A DNA stretch of 18,283 bases, taken from contig CALWKT010000078.1 in the NCBI GenBank assembly GCA_944381335.1, forward strand, positions 1-18,283. Reading direction: 5' to 3'. Source of the DNA: an uncultured Christensenellaceae bacterium. GTDB lineage: Bacteria; Bacillota_A; Clostridia; Christensenellales; UBA3700. A program made the translations under genes and the position numbers. Under the pieces are notes generated by a model that made no database searches, had not been told where the DNA came from, and was given only the letters and a program-made list of their open reading frames with translations. This document shows positions 9,992 to 16,343 of the stretch, one piece after another; positions within the stretch are counted from its first letter, which is position 1, and every line of letters begins with the position of its first letter.

Positions 9992-11596
9992 ATGTTAAGC
10001 AGTAACACAGGCTTGACTTTACTCCCTGGGGCGGGAATTTCCGGCGGAATAGCGGCTGTAATAGCAATTGCTACGGCTGTTGTCGGAGTTGCAATCGGTT
10101 TGGTAGTGTACAGATTTTACGTCCATCGCACGATCGGCGGCGTAAAGCGTGAATGCGACACGATGAAAGAAAAAGCACAGATCGAAGCAAACGGCATCCT
10201 CGAAGGAGCAAAGGCAATAAAGGAAGAGCAGCAAAGACTGCGTCATGAACTGGACAGGGAGATCAAGCAGAAAAGAGACGAGAACTCCAGGACAGAGCAA
10301 AGACTCTCGCAGAGAGAAGATCAGCTTGTAAAACGCGAACTTTCCATTGACAAGAAGTCAGATCTGATCGACGAAAGAAAGAAACAGATCGAACAGAAGG
10401 AAAGCGAGATCGAAAAGCTCGAAAACGAAGTGCGGAATGCGCATACCGTCATGGTACAGGAACTTGAAAAGGTTTCCGGCATGACTCAGGGCGAAGCGAA
10501 AGAAGTATTGATCCGGGAAATGGTCGACGAAGCGAGAAAAGACGCAGAAGTAAAGGTCAGGGAGATAGAACAGCAAGCCAAGGAAGAAGCCGACAAAAAG
10601 GCTAAAAACATTGTGGGTATGGCGCTTCAGAGATGCGCTGTGGATCACGCTTCGGAAATTGCTGTTTCTGTCGTATCACTTCCCAACGAAGACATGAAAG
10701 GCAGGCTTATCGGCAGGGTCGGCAGAAATATCCGTTCGATTGAAAATTGTACGGGCGTTGACCTTATAATCGACGATACTCCGGACGTCGTGACCATCTC
10801 GGGCTTTGATCCGGTAAGGCGCGAAATTGCGAGACTTACGATCGAAAAACTCGTTTCAGACGGCAGAATACATCCCGCAAGGATTGAAGAAACCGTCGAA
10901 AAGGTCAAAAAAGAGATGGACGCGCAGATCAAGGAAGCGGGCGAAAACGCAGCGTTCGACGCAAATATTTACGGTTTGCATCCCGAGTTGATAAAACTTC
11001 TCGGCAGACTGAAATACCGCACCAGCTACGGTCAGAACGTTCTCAATCATTCTCTCGAGGTTTGCTTCCTCGCAGGTATGATGGCTTCTGAACTGGGCGC
11101 AGACGTCAAAGTAGCCAAGAGAGCAGGACTTCTTCACGACATAGGTAAATCGGTTGACCACGAATTTGAAGGCACTCACGTTTCGATAGGCGTTGAGCTT
11201 GCAAAAAAATTCAAAGAAAACCGCGCAGTCATACACGCGATCGAGGCGCATCACGGCGACGTGGAACCGCAGACTCTCGAAGCGATCATCGTTCAGGCGG
11301 CAGACTCCGTTTCAGGCGCAAGACCCGGAGCGAGAAGAGAATCGATCGAAAATTACGTCAAGAGACTTGAAAAACTTGAAAGTCTCGCCAATTCTTTCGA
11401 CGGCGTGGAAACGTCGTATGCGATCCAGGCGGGCAGAGAGATCAGAGTCATCGTGAAACCCGAAGAAGTCGACGATTCCAAGACAATGTTCATGGCAAAG
11501 GAGATCGCCAAGAAACTTGAAGCTGAACTGGAATATCCGGGACAGATCAAAGTCAACGTGATAAGAGAAGTAAGACGTGTTGAATACGCGAAATAA
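9992..11596 (+). CDS. rny: Ribonuclease Y
   Basis: A membrane-anchored endoribonuclease that starts mRNA decay in many Firmicutes. In order, the 534 residues show an N-terminal membrane helix (about 10-35), a long charged coiled coil (about 45-210) with many E/K/Q residues, a KH RNA-binding domain with the GxxG loop G241-R-V-G244, and an HD hydrolase domain with H382-D383 in LLHDIGK, followed by EAHHGD and [14 protein letters not shown]. The KH loop usually reads GREG; here Val243 replaces the Glu. The ATG at 9992 follows AGGAGG (9981-9986). A consensus promoter precedes the gene and an intrinsic terminator follows, so it is monocistronic. In B. subtilis ymdB and spoVS follow; neither is present here. 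Confidence 0.97.
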
Positions 11597-12442: not shown

Positions 12443-13060
12443 CTAAAGCAGGATCAGTGCAACGAGCCACGGCATTATTACGCATACGACAAGACACAGA
12501 GCGGTAAAACAGAGCAGCAACGCGGCATAGTGCGACAGCAATTCTGTTATTGATCCGGTACAGGTCACCGTCGCGCTTTTTGCCGTCCAGTATCGGCTCG
12601 CAAAGCCTGTTGCCACAACGCAGATCGTCATATACCCGAGACAAAGCGGCAGATAAAAAAATATTGCCGTAAAGATACCGTCCACAAGAGCAACGTTTGC
12701 CGCGCCAACGAAACACAGCCCGAATCTGTATCCCAGAAATGCCGTCCATACAAAAGTCAGCGCGCTGAAATACTTTTTGAACACGCAGGTGAAGTTCACG
12801 GTAAGAGTTGCAAGCGCGAGAAGAAAGAATTTGAAAAAAGTTGAAAATTTGCCGTACTCTGCGGTTTTCAATGCGGAAAACACATTGAGTTTGAAATATT
12901 CTTCTCCGAATCTGACCGCAACGACAATGCCCAGCAGAATTCCGGTCAGACAAGACGAGCAGACAATGGCTATCAATGACGAATGTTCTTCAACAAACGC
13001 TGATACGCAGTTTTTAAGATAATTCAAATTGAGAAAAAACTTCTTCTTTCCGGTCCGCAT
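12443..13060 (-). CDS. SpoIIM-like multi-pass membrane protein
   Basis: A 205-residue, strongly hydrophobic protein with about five membrane segments (about 26-48, 74-95, 99-122, 126-155, 178-203) after a basic start. Length and topology fit SpoIIM, a subunit of the SpoIID-M-P engulfment complex, as does the order of segments including GYRFGLCF and the FFYLP turn. Context adds weight: in B. subtilis spoIIM lies in the block that also holds drm (deoB), dacF and lysA. No ribosome binding site precedes the ATG at 13060, and an in-frame TAG 9 nt before the ATG excludes a longer reading. The ATG lies in an inverted repeat. Start and stop spacing suggest co-transcription with the Spo0A-like gene 70 nt upstream. 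The SpoIIM name rests on topology plus context, so it is moderate. Confidence 0.55.
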   Translation of the reverse strand: MRTGKKKFFLNLNYLKNCVSAFVEEHSSLIAIVCSSCLTGILLGIVVAVRFGEEYFKLNVFSALKTAEYGKFSTFFKFFLLALATLTVNFTCVFKKYFSALTFVWTAFLGYRFGLCFVGAANVALVDGIFTAIFFYLPLCLGYMTICVVATGFASRYWTAKSATVTCTGSITELLSHYAALLLCFTALCLVVCVIMPWLVALILL

Positions 13061-13130: not shown

Positions 13131-13487
13131 TTAAAACATCGCAGTCTGAACAGAATATCTGATTTTTTCGCACGACTGCATTATGAATTGCTTTGCCGTC
13201 GGTTTGCCTTTTTCTGTGTCGATAGTGTTGCCGAATTCTCCGTAAAGCGCGTCTATGTCGCCGTCAAGCCACGCTTTGGAAATACAGTTCTGAATGTTTT
13301 TGTCCACGCAGTCCGTGCACGTGCCGTATTTTTCCGAAACAAGTCTGTAACCGACGTATTTAAGCGGAAGTATCTCGATGCCGTTGAGTTCGGCTTCGAT
13401 AAGATCGACAAGATAGCGATAGCCCTTGCAGGACGGCTTTACGCCCAACGAAAGCAGATAACCGGAGATTTCGCGTTTGAAGTTCAT
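13131..13487 (-). CDS. Orphan Spo0A C-terminal (DNA-binding) domain protein
   Basis: A 118-residue protein that aligns by eye over nearly its whole length with the effector domain of Spo0A. It shows LGVKPSCKGYRYL (14-26; B. subtilis IGVPAHIKGYLYL), EKYGT, then the recognition-helix region ending in KAW (56-73), DGDIDALYGEFGNTI (75-89) and GKPTAKQFI (94-102). The phosphoacceptor receiver domain of full Spo0A (about 267 residues) is absent, so phosphorelay control is impossible in the usual way. In the recognition helix the Arg, Glu, Arg and His positions of B. subtilis are replaced (Cys, Asp, Gln, Asn), so its target may differ. The ATG at 13487 lies exactly 6 bp after a TATAAT box. A TTG two codons upstream is the only alternative, and a TAG blocks anything longer. 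It is divergent from deoB. Confidence 0.75.
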   Translation of the reverse strand: MNFKREISGYLLSLGVKPSCKGYRYLVDLIEAELNGIEILPLKYVGYRLVSEKYGTCTDCVDKNIQNCISKAWLDGDIDALYGEFGNTIDTEKGKPTAKQFIMQSCEKIRYSVQTAMF

Positions 13488-13493
13488 ATGCAA

Positions 13494-13521
13494 ATTATAC
13501 TACCTGACCGTGCGCGTAAAA
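13494..13521 (-). promoter_or_regulatory. Promoter for the Spo0A-like gene, predicted leaderless
   Basis: On the minus strand TATAAT occupies 13499-13494 and the ATG begins at 13487, so the usual start distance puts the first transcribed base at or next to the A of ATG. The -35 region is weak (TTTTAC, 13521-13516, spacer 16), which could mean activator dependence. Confidence 0.55.
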
Positions 13522-13568
13522 CTGCATATACTGTCAGAAAAGCGGAAAAAAGACGGGATAAAGCGGAC

Positions 13569-13589: not shown

Positions 13590-13604
13590 AAATAATGATA
13601 TAAT
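13576..13604 (+). promoter_or_regulatory. Strong promoter for deoB, predicted leaderless
   Basis: TTGAAA (13576-13581), a 17-bp spacer ending in the extended -10 element TGA, and TATAAT (13599-13604). Only 6 bp separate the -10 box from the ATG at 13611, so transcription should begin at the start codon. Confidence 0.75.
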
Positions 13605-13610
13605 ATTTTT

Positions 13611-14765
13611 ATGAAAACGTGTTATCTGATAGTGCTGGACAGCCTCGGGATCGGCGGAGCCGCAGACGCGGCGGATTTTGCCGACGAGGGCAGCAATACA
13701 TACAAGGCGATATATCCCTTTCTGAACACGCCTTGTCTGCGTTCGCTCGGCTTTGACAACATAGACGGGCTTGATTTCGCCGTGCCGGTGAAAAATCCGC
13801 TTGCAAGTTTCGCAAGGCTCGCGGAAAGGTCAAGAGGTAAAGACACGACGACCGGACATTACGAGATCGCAGGGCTTGTCGTCAGGTCTCCGCACCCGGT
13901 TTATCCTCAAGGTTTTCCTGACAATATCGTAAAAAAACTCTGCGAAGCGTGGGGCGTAAGCGGCGTGCTGGGCAACAAGGCGGCAAGCGGCACCGAAATA
14001 ATAAAGGAACTCGGTCAGGAGCATCTGAGAACGGGACTTCCGATCGTCTATACGTCTGCGGACAGCGTGCTTCAGGTCGCCGCGAGCGTGGATACCTTCG
14101 GGCTTGACAGGCTTTACGACTGCTGCGAAAAAGCAAGAAGGATAATGTGCGGCAAGGACAGCGTGGGCAGGATTATCGCGCGCCCGTTTTCGAGAGACGC
14201 TTCCGGCAATTTCTACCGCACTCCCGACAGACGCGATTACGCGCTTTTACCGCCGGCAAAAACTGTTTTGAACGCGCTTTCCGAAAGCGGTATCGACGTT
14301 GTGTCCGTCGGCAAAATAAAGGACATTTTCTGCGGATCCGGCATTACAAAGGCAATACCTGCCCACGGCAATAAAGAAGTCGGAGAAGGGATTCTGAATT
14401 TCAAGCCTGAAAAAGATTCTCTTGTATTTGCGAATTTCGTGGATTTCGATATGCTTTACGGGCACAGGAACGACGTCAAAGGATACGCAGATTGCCTGAA
14501 CGCGTTCGACAAGATATTGCCTGATATTCTGGGTAAGATCGGAGGCAACGATATGCTGATAATTACCGCGGATCACGGTTGCGACCCGTCAACGCCTTCA
14601 ACCGATCACTCAAGAGAAAACGTGCCGCTTATCGTTTACAGAAAGTGTGAAAAAGCAAAAGATCTCGGCACGATCGAAGGGTTTTACTATATAGCAAATA
14701 AAATTGCAGACTTTTTCGGCGTGCCGTATGAAGTAAAAGAAGTGGACGCCGCACCAAACCTGTAA
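13611..14765 (+). CDS. deoB: Phosphopentomutase
   Basis: An alkaline-phosphatase-superfamily metalloenzyme that interconverts (deoxy)ribose 1- and 5-phosphate in nucleoside breakdown and salvage. The 384 residues are close to the family norm of about 390. It opens with the metal-site strand YLIVLDSLGIGG (D10). It carries the active-site threonine segment GKDTTTGHYE (76-85) and ends with the second metal cluster ADHGCD (D321, H322) and TDHSRE (D332, H333). The start is fixed because the family's first strand begins at residue 4. There is no Shine-Dalgarno sequence; a TATAAT box sits 6 bp upstream. In B. subtilis drm is followed by pupG and dacF; here a small ORF replaces pupG. Confidence 0.95.
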   Translation: MKTCYLIVLDSLGIGGAADAADFADEGSNTYKAIYPFLNTPCLRSLGFDNIDGLDFAVPVKNPLASFARLAERSRGKDTTTGHYEIAGLVVRSPHPVYPQGFPDNIVKKLCEAWGVSGVLGNKAASGTEIIKELGQEHLRTGLPIVYTSADSVLQVAASVDTFGLDRLYDCCEKARRIMCGKDSVGRIIARPFSRDASGNFYRTPDRRDYALLPPAKTVLNALSESGIDVVSVGKIKDIFCGSGITKAIPAHGNKEVGEGILNFKPEKDSLVFANFVDFDMLYGHRNDVKGYADCLNAFDKILPDILGKIGGNDMLIITADHGCDPSTPSTDHSRENVPLIVYRKCEKAKDLGTIEGFYYIANKIADFFGVPYEVKEVDAAPNL

Positions 14766-14780
14766 ACGGAGAAAAATTTA

Positions 14781-14978
14781 ATGCGTACAAAAAAAGATAA
14801 GAGACCGTCTCAGGAAGAGATCGACAAAAAAATCAGCGATATAAAGGCGATTTGGGGCATTGAAGGGATGCAGGTCGAGCCTGAAACGGAAATCAGCCTG
14901 AGAAGATTCTTTGCCGGAGAGATGACGGAAGACGAACTTATGTCTGAAGTGATCGTAAACTACGAAAGAAAAAAATGA
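14781..14978 (+). CDS. Small VbhA-like (Fic-antitoxin-type) protein, no partner visible
   Basis: A 65-residue charged, helical protein. Its layout fits the antitoxin VbhA family: a basic N-terminus, a helix ending in IEGM (27-30), a spacer with EPE, then LRRFFAGEMTEDELMSEVI (40-58), the G-x-[IM]-T-x-[DE]-E-[LF] second helix typical of the group. VbhA-type proteins silence Fic AMP-transferases through an [S/T]-x3-E-[G/N] motif. Here E28-G29 is present but position 24 is Ile, so the inhibitory Ser/Thr is missing. No Fic gene (HPFx[D/E]GNGR) lies nearby. It starts 15 nt after the deoB stop with ACGGAGAA in front, so it is translated from the deoB transcript. The family call is tentative. Confidence 0.45.
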   Translation: MRTKKDKRPSQEEIDKKISDIKAIWGIEGMQVEPETEISLRRFFAGEMTEDELMSEVIVNYERKK

Positions 14979-15094
14979 AAATCCGAGTCTTGCCTGAAAT
15001 ATCCTGTTCCGGCCCCGGTTTTTTATAAGCGACGCCGGTTGTTTATCCGTAAAAGACAGATAAGCCGGAAAGGGCTGAAAATCGTATGAACTTT

Positions 15095-15119
15095 GCGCCG
15101 AATATTTGCGGCGCTTTTT
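15095..15119 (+). terminator. Intrinsic terminator between the small ORF and dacF
   Basis: GCGCCG (15095-15100) pairs with CGGCGC (15109-15114) around 8 nt and is followed by five T. It ends the deoB transcript, yet it lies only 37 nt before the dacF ATG, so it could also act as an attenuator for read-through into dacF. Confidence 0.75.
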
Positions 15120-15155
15120 CTTATACTAATCACAATCATTAAAGAGAGGTGCAGT

Positions 15156-16343
15156 ATGAAGAAAAATTTTGCGATATTACTTGCATTGCTTGCTTTGACG
15201 GCGGCAGTCTGGTCGGGCGTAGCGTACGCTAGCGAAATGCCTGACGTCGTAAGTGAAGCAAATGCTGTGCAATCGAAAGAAAGCGCATATAGCGTAAATT
15301 GCCATTCAGCTTATTTATCTGATTACGCTACGGGAGCGGAGCTGTATTCTTATAACGCGGACAGCAGACACGAGATAGCCAGCATGGTAAAAATAATGAC
15401 GGCAGATCTTGTATTCGAAGCGATAGAAAGCGGACAGATAGGAGTAGAGGATGAAATAACCGTATCCGAGCGAGCATCGTCTATGGGCGGCAGTCAGATG
15501 TTTCTGGACGCTAATGAAAAGTATAGGGTAAACGATCTGATAAAAGGTGTTGTCGTGGCGTCTGCAAACGACGCGGCGGTCGCGCTTGCGGAGACTGTAA
15601 GCGGAAGCGTGGAAGGTTTTGTGAACGCGATGAACGAAAAGGCGGAAAGTCTTGGCATGACAAATACGAAATTTGCAAACCCTACCGGTCTCCCGTCCGA
15701 AAGCGAGCAGTACTCGACGGCGCGCGACGTCAATGTGATGACGAGAGAACTGATGAAACACGACGGATATTACGAATACGCGGGGATATGGACAGAAGAT
15801 TTTACTCATCCGTCCGGCAGAGTAACGACTCTTACAAATACCAATAAGCTTATAAGAAGTTACCAGGGGTGCAAGGGCGGCAAGACGGGATATACAGACA
15901 GCGCTAAATTCTGCGTTTCAGCCTGCGCTGAAAGAAACGGAATCAAAACTGTCGCGACCGTGATAGGCGCAGACGACAGCAAGGTGAGATTTGCAGAAGC
16001 TTGCAGACTTTTCAACTACGCTTTTGCGAACTTCAGAAACGAGATCGTATGCAAGCAGGGCGAAAAGATTGAAAAAAGCGTTTCAGTTGAAAAGAGCAGA
16101 GTAAAGGCAATGACTCCCGTTGCCGCACAGGACGTGGCGGTCCTCATAAAACAGGGCGACGAAGTGAAGATAGAATACGAGCTTCCTGACAAAATCAAGG
16201 CGCCGGTCAGGAAAGGAGATCTTGTCGGCAGGATAAAAGTCACACATGAAGGCAAGGAATATTATTTCGATCTTATCAGTGACAGCGACATCCCACGCGC
16301 AACCATATGGGATATAATCAAGGACATGGCGGGTCAGTGGTAA
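15156..16343 (+). CDS. dacF: D-alanyl-D-alanine carboxypeptidase (DacF/PBP5 family)
   Basis: A low-molecular-weight penicillin-binding protein that removes the terminal D-Ala from peptidoglycan stem peptides. The 395 residues begin with a signal peptide (residues 2-25, cleavage after AYA). The three serine acyl-enzyme motifs are intact: S76-M-V-K79, S136-A-N138 and K243-T-G245. The C-terminal PBP5-like beta domain follows, and the last 15 or so residues form an amphipathic helix that probably anchors it to the outer membrane leaflet side. The ATG at 15156 follows AGAGAGG; a longer in-frame reading from 15093 would run through the terminator and is rejected. A TATACT -10-like box lies at 15122-15127 with no good -35. 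In B. subtilis dacF leads into spoIIA, which is absent here. Confidence 0.92.
   Translation: MKKNFAILLALLALTAAVWSGVAYASEMPDVVSEANAVQSKESAYSVNCHSAYLSDYATGAELYSYNADSRHEIASMVKIMTADLVFEAIESGQIGVEDEITVSERASSMGGSQMFLDANEKYRVNDLIKGVVVASANDAAVALAETVSGSVEGFVNAMNEKAESLGMTNTKFANPTGLPSESEQYSTARDVNVMTRELMKHDGYYEYAGIWTEDFTHPSGRVTTLTNTNKLIRSYQGCKGGKTGYTDSAKFCVSACAERNGIKTVATVIGADDSKVRFAEACRLFNYAFANFRNEIVCKQGEKIEKSVSVEKSRVKAMTPVAAQDVAVLIKQGDEVKIEYELPDKIKAPVRKGDLVGRIKVTHEGKEYYFDLISDSDIPRATIWDIIKDMAGQW

Follow-up and report, generated by a model that had tools for sequence, protein, structure and literature searches.

A stand-alone Spo0A effector domain beside a SpoIIM-like gene: a candidate second sporulation regulator in an order of gut Clostridia

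Spo0A is treated as the single kinase-driven gate to sporulation, and a second, phosphorylation-independent tier of sporulation control is, to our knowledge, not known in model spore-formers. What, then, is the role of a gene that codes for the DNA-binding domain of Spo0A without the receiver, and that sits next to a gene for a SpoIIM-like membrane protein? Such a gene lies at 13131..13487 on the minus strand of the 18,283-nt stretch of DNA analysed here, termed the window. An earlier note on this DNA, made from the sequence alone, described it as a receiver-less Spo0A put to a new use. In this report we describe the protein, its partner gene and its relatives, trace its origin and outline a possible mechanism.

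The protein at 13131..13487

The open reading frame runs from an ATG at 13487 to a stop codon ending at 13131 and codes for a protein of 118 aa. Residues 7-109 align with positions 1-104 of the Pfam effector-domain model PF08769 (Spo0A_C), i.e., with the whole 104-position model, at 69.6 bits (cut-off 25; E 2.6e-19). A receiver domain is absent from the 118-aa protein, in which the effector begins at residue 7. Only two PDB sequences match at E<=1, and both are Spo0A effector sequences (1lq1, E 3.2e-14; 1fc3, E 2.3e-13). The AlphaFold2 model (pLDDT 90.5) comprises six helices, and all seven PDB chains retrieved by Foldseek at E<=0.001 are Spo0A effectors, the predicted fold reaching TM scores of 0.76-0.88 to 1lq1/1fc3. 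The equivalog model of full-length Spo0A, TIGR02875, scores 61.8 bits, below its 200-bit cut-off. The 118-aa protein is the Spo0A effector domain and nothing else. Profile search and structure comparison thus bear out what had been read from the letters, namely an almost exact coverage of the effector domain, the lack of a receiver and the motifs KGYRYL, KAW, GDIDALYGEFG and GKPT, all of which are found in the protein.

The Spo0A proteins of Bacillus and Clostridia combine a receiver (PF00072) with the effector (PF08769). The stand-alone protein shares their effector fold, and its gene shares the spoIVB-spo0A-spoIIM slot that full-length spo0A occupies in other members of this order; yet it has no receiver, hence no phosphorylation site, and its recognition helix carries IQN instead of IRH. 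A laboratory construct termed Spo0A-DBD also consists of the effector alone and, as described in PMC3485338, binds DNA without phosphorylation. The construct retains the canonical helix, whereas the present protein is encoded by a natural gene and has altered contact residues. Among the matches listed in a search of the open-access literature, judged by titles and the openings of abstracts, none dealt with a Spo0A that naturally lacks its receiver; subscription journals lay mostly outside this scope. One homologue is named “sporulation initiation factor Spo0A C-terminal domain-containing protein” at NCBI, and annotation had therefore already noted the domain, but not the pattern.

Conservation, partner gene and host lineage

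A scan of GTDB genomes yielded 24 related loci (25 with the window), which comprise group A (the window, L001-L008 and L021), group B (L009-L020, L022 and L023) and the separate locus L024. In all 24 the stand-alone gene lies in the same chromosomal block, to the limits of each contig. One flank of the block is formed by ftsK, rimO, pgsA, cinA, recA and rny, with the order of rimO and pgsA swapped in some loci, and the other by dacF, with or without deoB. In the window, the flanking genes include rny (RNase Y, 9992..11596, plus strand; PF12072 and an HD domain), the divergent neighbour deoB (phosphopentomutase, 13611..14765, plus strand; NCBIfam PRK05362, 469 bits) and a dacF-type D-Ala-D-Ala carboxypeptidase gene (15093..16343, plus strand; PF00768, E 1.6e-66). 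Between the latter two, at 14781-14978 (plus strand), a 65-aa protein is encoded that weakly resembles the antitoxin VbhA (19.9 bits, cut-off 25.9) and is conserved at the same place in L004, L007 and L008.

The gene stands without a receiver in 25/25 loci and starts at an equivalent ATG in each, the N-terminus in group B being two residues shorter. Identity to the window protein ranges from 54 to 79%, 43 of the 118 columns are invariant across the 25 loci, and dN/dS values of 0.015-0.076 (12 estimable of 14 pairs) indicate purifying selection. The gene of the SpoIIM-like partner, which is likewise present in 25/25 loci, yields 0.014-0.099 (12 of 14 pairs). The stand-alone gene is a real, conserved gene, and relatives do carry the pair under purifying selection, which the earlier note had named as support for a real function. 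That the gene might be a decaying spo0A leftover, a pseudogene in the making, or an artefact of assembly has a close to negligible probability. It is a slot copy after a duplication and more variable among relatives than canonical Spo0A, as a leftover would be; however, its start and -10 spacing are equivalent in 25/25 loci from many assemblies, and neither the invariant columns nor dN/dS values of at most 0.076 agree with decay. Truncation, which had been considered at the outset, is excluded, since none of the loci carries a receiver-fused form. Among 148 sampled genomes of the class, some of them from the order, no short open frame matched at E<=1e-12 beyond the gene of G001, except in G259, where the frame comprises 75 aa and contains an internal stop.

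The partner gene (12443..13060, minus strand) begins 70 nt downstream of the stand-alone gene and codes for a SpoIIM-like membrane protein of 205 aa; a same-strand membrane protein of about this length follows the stand-alone gene in 25/25 loci. The partner resembles SpoIIM (PF01944) in gene slot, length and helical membrane character. In contrast to SpoIIM, none of the 25 partners of the window's clade matches PF01944 at E<=1, and no protein of the 24 related genomes scores over the PF01944 cut-off, the one weak match being in another gene. A PDB fold search with the model of the window's partner (pLDDT 81) returned no match at E<=0.001. A probable link to SpoIIM runs through intermediate families: profiles were built from the window-clade partners (A2), from partners in related slots (A4) and from SpoIIM proteins of the slot (A3), and their comparison gave 98.7% for A2 with A4 and 96.6% for A4 with A3, but only 4.5% for A2 with A3 directly. 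Two unrelated membrane families used as controls gave about 0.1% against A2 and A4, and two of nine A4 members match PF01944 themselves (best E 1.5e-8). On these profile steps and the shared slot, the best reading of the partner is a fast-evolving SpoIIM. The SpoIIM-like neighbour of the earlier note is a putative SpoIIM, linked by way of intermediates and not by a Pfam match of its own. In G001's order SpoIVA is common (82/101), yet PF01944 exceeds its cut-off in no more than four of 61 genomes; in much of the order, SpoIIM may thus be too divergent for its Pfam model.

The region had also been described as otherwise devoid of sporulation genes, as if the gene were a relic left after the loss of sporulation. 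The first statement is correct for the 18,283 nt of the window but not for the related genomes, and the second is not supported. A full-length canonical Spo0A (match of at least 137 bits) occurs in 21 of the 24 related genomes and no such copy is shown in three; most relatives thus have a complete spo0A, for which the earlier note had proposed a search of the full genome. The canonical copies fetched from relatives have a receiver-like N-terminus, confirmed by Pfam in L032, and an unchanged helix VERAIRHAIEVAW. SpoIVA is matched in 22/24 related genomes, over the cut-off in 20. The best match to the sigma-F model scores 255-278 bits in 23/24 genomes and 127 bits in G018, all below the curated cut-off of 321, and the two sigF loci that were read fully (L055 and L057) are spoIIAA-spoIIAB-sigF-like operons, their first two genes having been named by eye. 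Since the relatives keep these genes, the fact that the window has no spoIIA between dacF and lysA looks like a matter of gene order and not of sporulation loss. Judged from its related genomes, the host lineage looks spore-forming.

Has the protein nevertheless left sporulation, and does it regulate, e.g., the divergent deoB or cell-wall genes? We regard this as unlikely. The orientation of the gene, divergent from deoB or dacF, and a promoter spacing in common with deoB would suit such a role, but deoB adjoins the stand-alone gene in only 10/24 related loci compared to 25/25 for the SpoIIM-type partner. In addition, every order genome that carries the stand-alone clade has a SpoIVA match (19/19, 18 over the cut-off), as opposed to 82/101 genomes overall (P 0.012, unadjusted for kinship).

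Gene slot, trees and origin

In the wider order 101 genomes were sampled, 19 of which carry a member of the stand-alone clade. Within a 105-row tree (reduced from 117 matches by dropping duplicate domains and effector matches shorter than 75 aa), 42 stand-alone proteins including that of the window form one side of a branch with a support of 99/85. A SpoIIM-type gene lies beside 38 of the 42; 34 of these 38 partners had served to build the profiles used, and those of L072, L073, L075 and L081 matched independently. Seventeen members fall outside the window's clade; at nine of them spoIVB is present as well, eight of the nine also lie by dacF, and in some of these outer loci the stand-alone gene is inverted. 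The slot is held by a full-length gene in L060, where the order is spoIVB, full spo0A, spoIIM, purine phosphorylase and dacF.

The canonical copies lie elsewhere. In genomes that bear a stand-alone gene, 40/40 of them are without spoIVB, spoIIM, deoB, dacF and rny within 2.1-3.3 kb (some limited by contig ends), and the same marker genes are missing next to ten of ten further off-slot canonical copies. Nine genomes carry a longer Spo0A in the slot, and seven of these (G025, G035, G039, G047, G063, G067 and G073) possess a second, canonical copy elsewhere; no such copy was found in the remaining two (G046 and G091). The order genomes G048 and G074 have an off-slot copy only, and G028 and G034 gave no Spo0A_C match. 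Among 41 clade-bearing genomes, no canonical Spo0A was found in five (G008, G018, G020, G065 and G111), likely due to incomplete assembly.

Trees divide the family along the same line. For a rooted 55-row tree, which includes two Bacillus-type outgroup sequences, rows were selected by hand and 11 new ones added; the long-branched stand-alones L079 and L081, three others (L090, L117 and L120), a third Spo0A_C family and the L082 group were omitted. Here the off-slot canonical copies form a clade of 26 rows (100/100), opposite the slot copies and stand-alones (27 rows, 100/99), with the main stand-alone clade (96/83) nested among slot copies. The split is retained in a 61-row tree that restored the omitted rows (three of seven in the case of the third family): off-slot copies and third family comprise 24 rows (100/100), the slot side comprises 35 rows at lower support (92/99), and the main stand-alone clade receives 98/86. 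These trees comprise 110 columns and contain long branches; their outgroup does not form a clade, and the branching order of the slot copies is weakly supported. From gene order and trees together, one old duplication followed by receiver decay in the copy that stayed in the slot appears to be the simplest account.

Several further copies touch on this history. A Response_reg match is found in L060, L085 and L091, and there is none at E<=0.01 in L088 and L092. L088 (G073), L092 (G063) and L094 (G047) are near-full-length slot copies from genomes with SpoIVA and a second canonical Spo0A; they possibly represent intermediates of receiver decay, the N-terminal region being kept in L088 and L092 without a Response_reg match. 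Stand-alone Spo0A_C proteins also occur outside the main clade, on long branches of the slot side (L090 in G064, L117 in G123 and L120 in G031), and loss of the receiver may therefore have occurred repeatedly. The third Spo0A_C family (L046 and L049-L054, from seven group-A genomes) comprises proteins of 234-256 aa with the helix IERGIRH on the off-slot side of the tree; in the one member that was put to Pfam, L046, no receiver is seen. L082, L086, L087 and L093 are Spo0A-like, carry the helix VERNIRHAIETAA and are encoded just upstream of an apparent purine-nucleoside phosphorylase gene, and SpoIVA was not found in their genomes (G099, G055, G078 and G118). Finally, adjacent short open frames at G039:C6:54808-55593 each have a Spo0A_C match, and several partial matches are spread over several contigs of G091; these extras probably do not belong to the clade studied here and represent additional copies that stand alone or are decaying.

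Recognition helix, promoter and a possible mechanism

For the comparison of DNA-contacting residues we assume that position 1 of the 1lq1 chain is residue 148, and we take Arg211, Glu213, Arg214, Arg217 and His218 to be the helix residues with which Spo0A reads the 0A box. The window protein has Cys, Asp, Lys, Gln and Asn at these positions and thus differs from the 0A-box-reading set throughout. The changes formerly noticed relative to B. subtilis (Arg211, Glu213, Arg214 and His218) are real, and Arg217 is replaced in addition. Position 211, which is Lys in 40/40 canonical copies and Arg in the PDB chains, varies between Ser, Cys, Thr, Ala and Asn over the 42 clade members; among these, position 214 is Lys in 39, position 217 is Gln in 39 and position 218 is Asn in 40; Arg217 and His218 occur in none. 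The canonical copies keep Arg214, Arg217 and His218 unchanged in 40/40, and in the window's 25 loci the stretch D-K-N-I-Q-N-C-I (D62 to I69) is invariant. As Arg217 has become Gln and His218 Asn, the protein should read a site other than the 0A box, and a helix that is both changed and fixed argues for a DNA site that was kept but is different.

Two other readings meet at this helix. DNA reading might have been lost in favour of a part as a partner protein, e.g., one acting together with the membrane protein SpoIIM, to which the constant pairing with a membrane-protein gene would correspond. Yet few parts of the protein are as conserved as the stretch of the recognition helix, which is what DNA contacts would require, and we consider this highly improbable. 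Alternatively, the free effector might be an antagonist, a brake that dampens sporulation by occupying 0A boxes or by pairing with the effector of canonical Spo0A. The fold is the same, the dimer surface is possibly shared and canonical Spo0A co-occurs in 36/41 clade-bearing genomes; but a simple competitor would keep the 0A-box-reading residues, which here are changed and fixed (Arg217 0/42, His218 0/42), and such a brake is a doubtful proposition.

The promoter bears on how the protein might be supplied. A -10 hexamer TATAAT (13494..13499, minus strand) ends exactly 6 nt before the ATG, in line with the earlier prediction that the gene starts at its own promoter, and no Shine-Dalgarno-like stretch was seen by eye before the window gene. 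A -10-like hexamer ends at an equal distance in 25/25 loci; it is TATAAT in ten (the window and nine relatives), and the other 15 have variants of one or two bases in a less clear register. From this geometry, a transcript beginning at the ATG, i.e., a leaderless one, is predicted. Outside the window's clade the 6-nt spacing occurs in four of the 15 clade members whose upstream regions were read (L073, L075, L080 and L081) and is missing in 11, several of which have a Shine-Dalgarno-like stretch; the geometry accordingly belongs to only part of the family. That leaderless starts are general in these loci was rejected: in a group-A scan that omitted open frames under 120 aa, the TANAAT-6-ATG peak amounts to only 14 of 614 candidate starts, nine of them at deoB, four at the stand-alone gene and one at another gene. 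At deoB, the TATAAT (TAAAAT in L008) lies exactly 6 nt before the ATG in 9/10 group-A loci, L004 showing no pattern match. In the window this hexamer is at 13599-13604, within the stretch 13599-13610 next to deoB; here, as at the corresponding site of relatives, a single intergenic region is predicted to serve two leaderless genes that diverge from it.

The consensus of ten aligned group-A promoters reads TTCGACA at -51 to -45, the complement of TGTCGAA, which is the 0A core as given in PMC3485338. This heptamer scores 56/70 in the ten promoters; of the 16,384 heptamers three attain this value, TTCGACA being one of them. Single promoters match it at 7/7 once, 6/7 six times, 5/7 twice and 3/7 once (L003); the window, with TCTGACA at 13532..13538 (minus strand), is among those with 5/7. 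No enrichment of the 0A core is found in 14 group-B promoters (L024 omitted). As a control, three of four spoIIAA promoters, namely those of group-A relatives, carry TTCGACN or TCCGACA 12 nt before TATAAT (spacing by eye), and that of G024 is without it; the distance from box to -10 is 32 nt at the stand-alone gene versus 12 nt at the spoIIAA promoters. At the promoter of canonical spo0A, three of eight group-A relatives show a core with one mismatch, at varying positions. A strict 16-mer of the group-B promoter is present at the stand-alone promoter in 6/8 genomes and three times elsewhere, compared to two hits of a reversed control, and a regulon was thus not found.

Taken as a whole, we explain the gene by an old duplication of spo0A, after which the copy in the slot became a second sporulation regulator that is controlled by supply, independent of phosphorylation and directed to a new DNA site, and we give this explanation a probability of roughly 0.55. 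In this order spo0A would have duplicated early, and the off-slot copy would have stayed canonical with receiver and unchanged helix. In the ancestral slot, between spoIVB and spoIIM, the other copy would have diverged and lost its receiver, leaving a stand-alone effector. According to PMC3485338, the isolated Spo0A DNA-binding domains of Bacillus and C. difficile bind their targets without phosphorylation, the inhibition by the receiver being gone. Since a receiver is missing, the DNA-binding domain should be free of inhibition and phosphorylation should have no target; the stand-alone protein would then be active when made and be controlled by its supply, which would be determined at a promoter that has a weak -35 and a predicted leaderless transcript. 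In group A the conserved 0A-like box upstream may allow canonical Spo0A~P to switch the gene on, or may serve autoregulation. The changed helix would provide a target set of its own within sporulation, and the first candidate target is the operon that it forms with the engulfment gene of SpoIIM type. The more specific version of this account, in which an ancient duplication split two Spo0A proteins, one listening to kinases and the other receiver-less, with a new operator and switched on by the first via the 0A-like box, we put forward tentatively and at somewhat less than an even chance. The regulator put to a new use, as originally suggested, fits with a real receiver-less effector that is kept by selection, has a SpoIIM-type partner and carries altered DNA-reading residues.

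Genomes are searched for spo0A as a first marker of the potential to sporulate, as set out in PMC11536998. In the lineage described here, the classic spo0A slot holds a gene that is not a response regulator and canonical spo0A lies elsewhere, a warning for annotation based on gene order or domains. On the slot side of the trees, some copies have a recognisable receiver and others do not; together they form a natural series, which illustrates how a response regulator may become a constitutive transcription factor. The stand-alone effector is a small protein, and its DNA site is directly measurable. If the proposed explanation is true, an order of gut Clostridia would possess a second tier of sporulation control that works without phosphorylation and is tied to the engulfment gene spoIIM.
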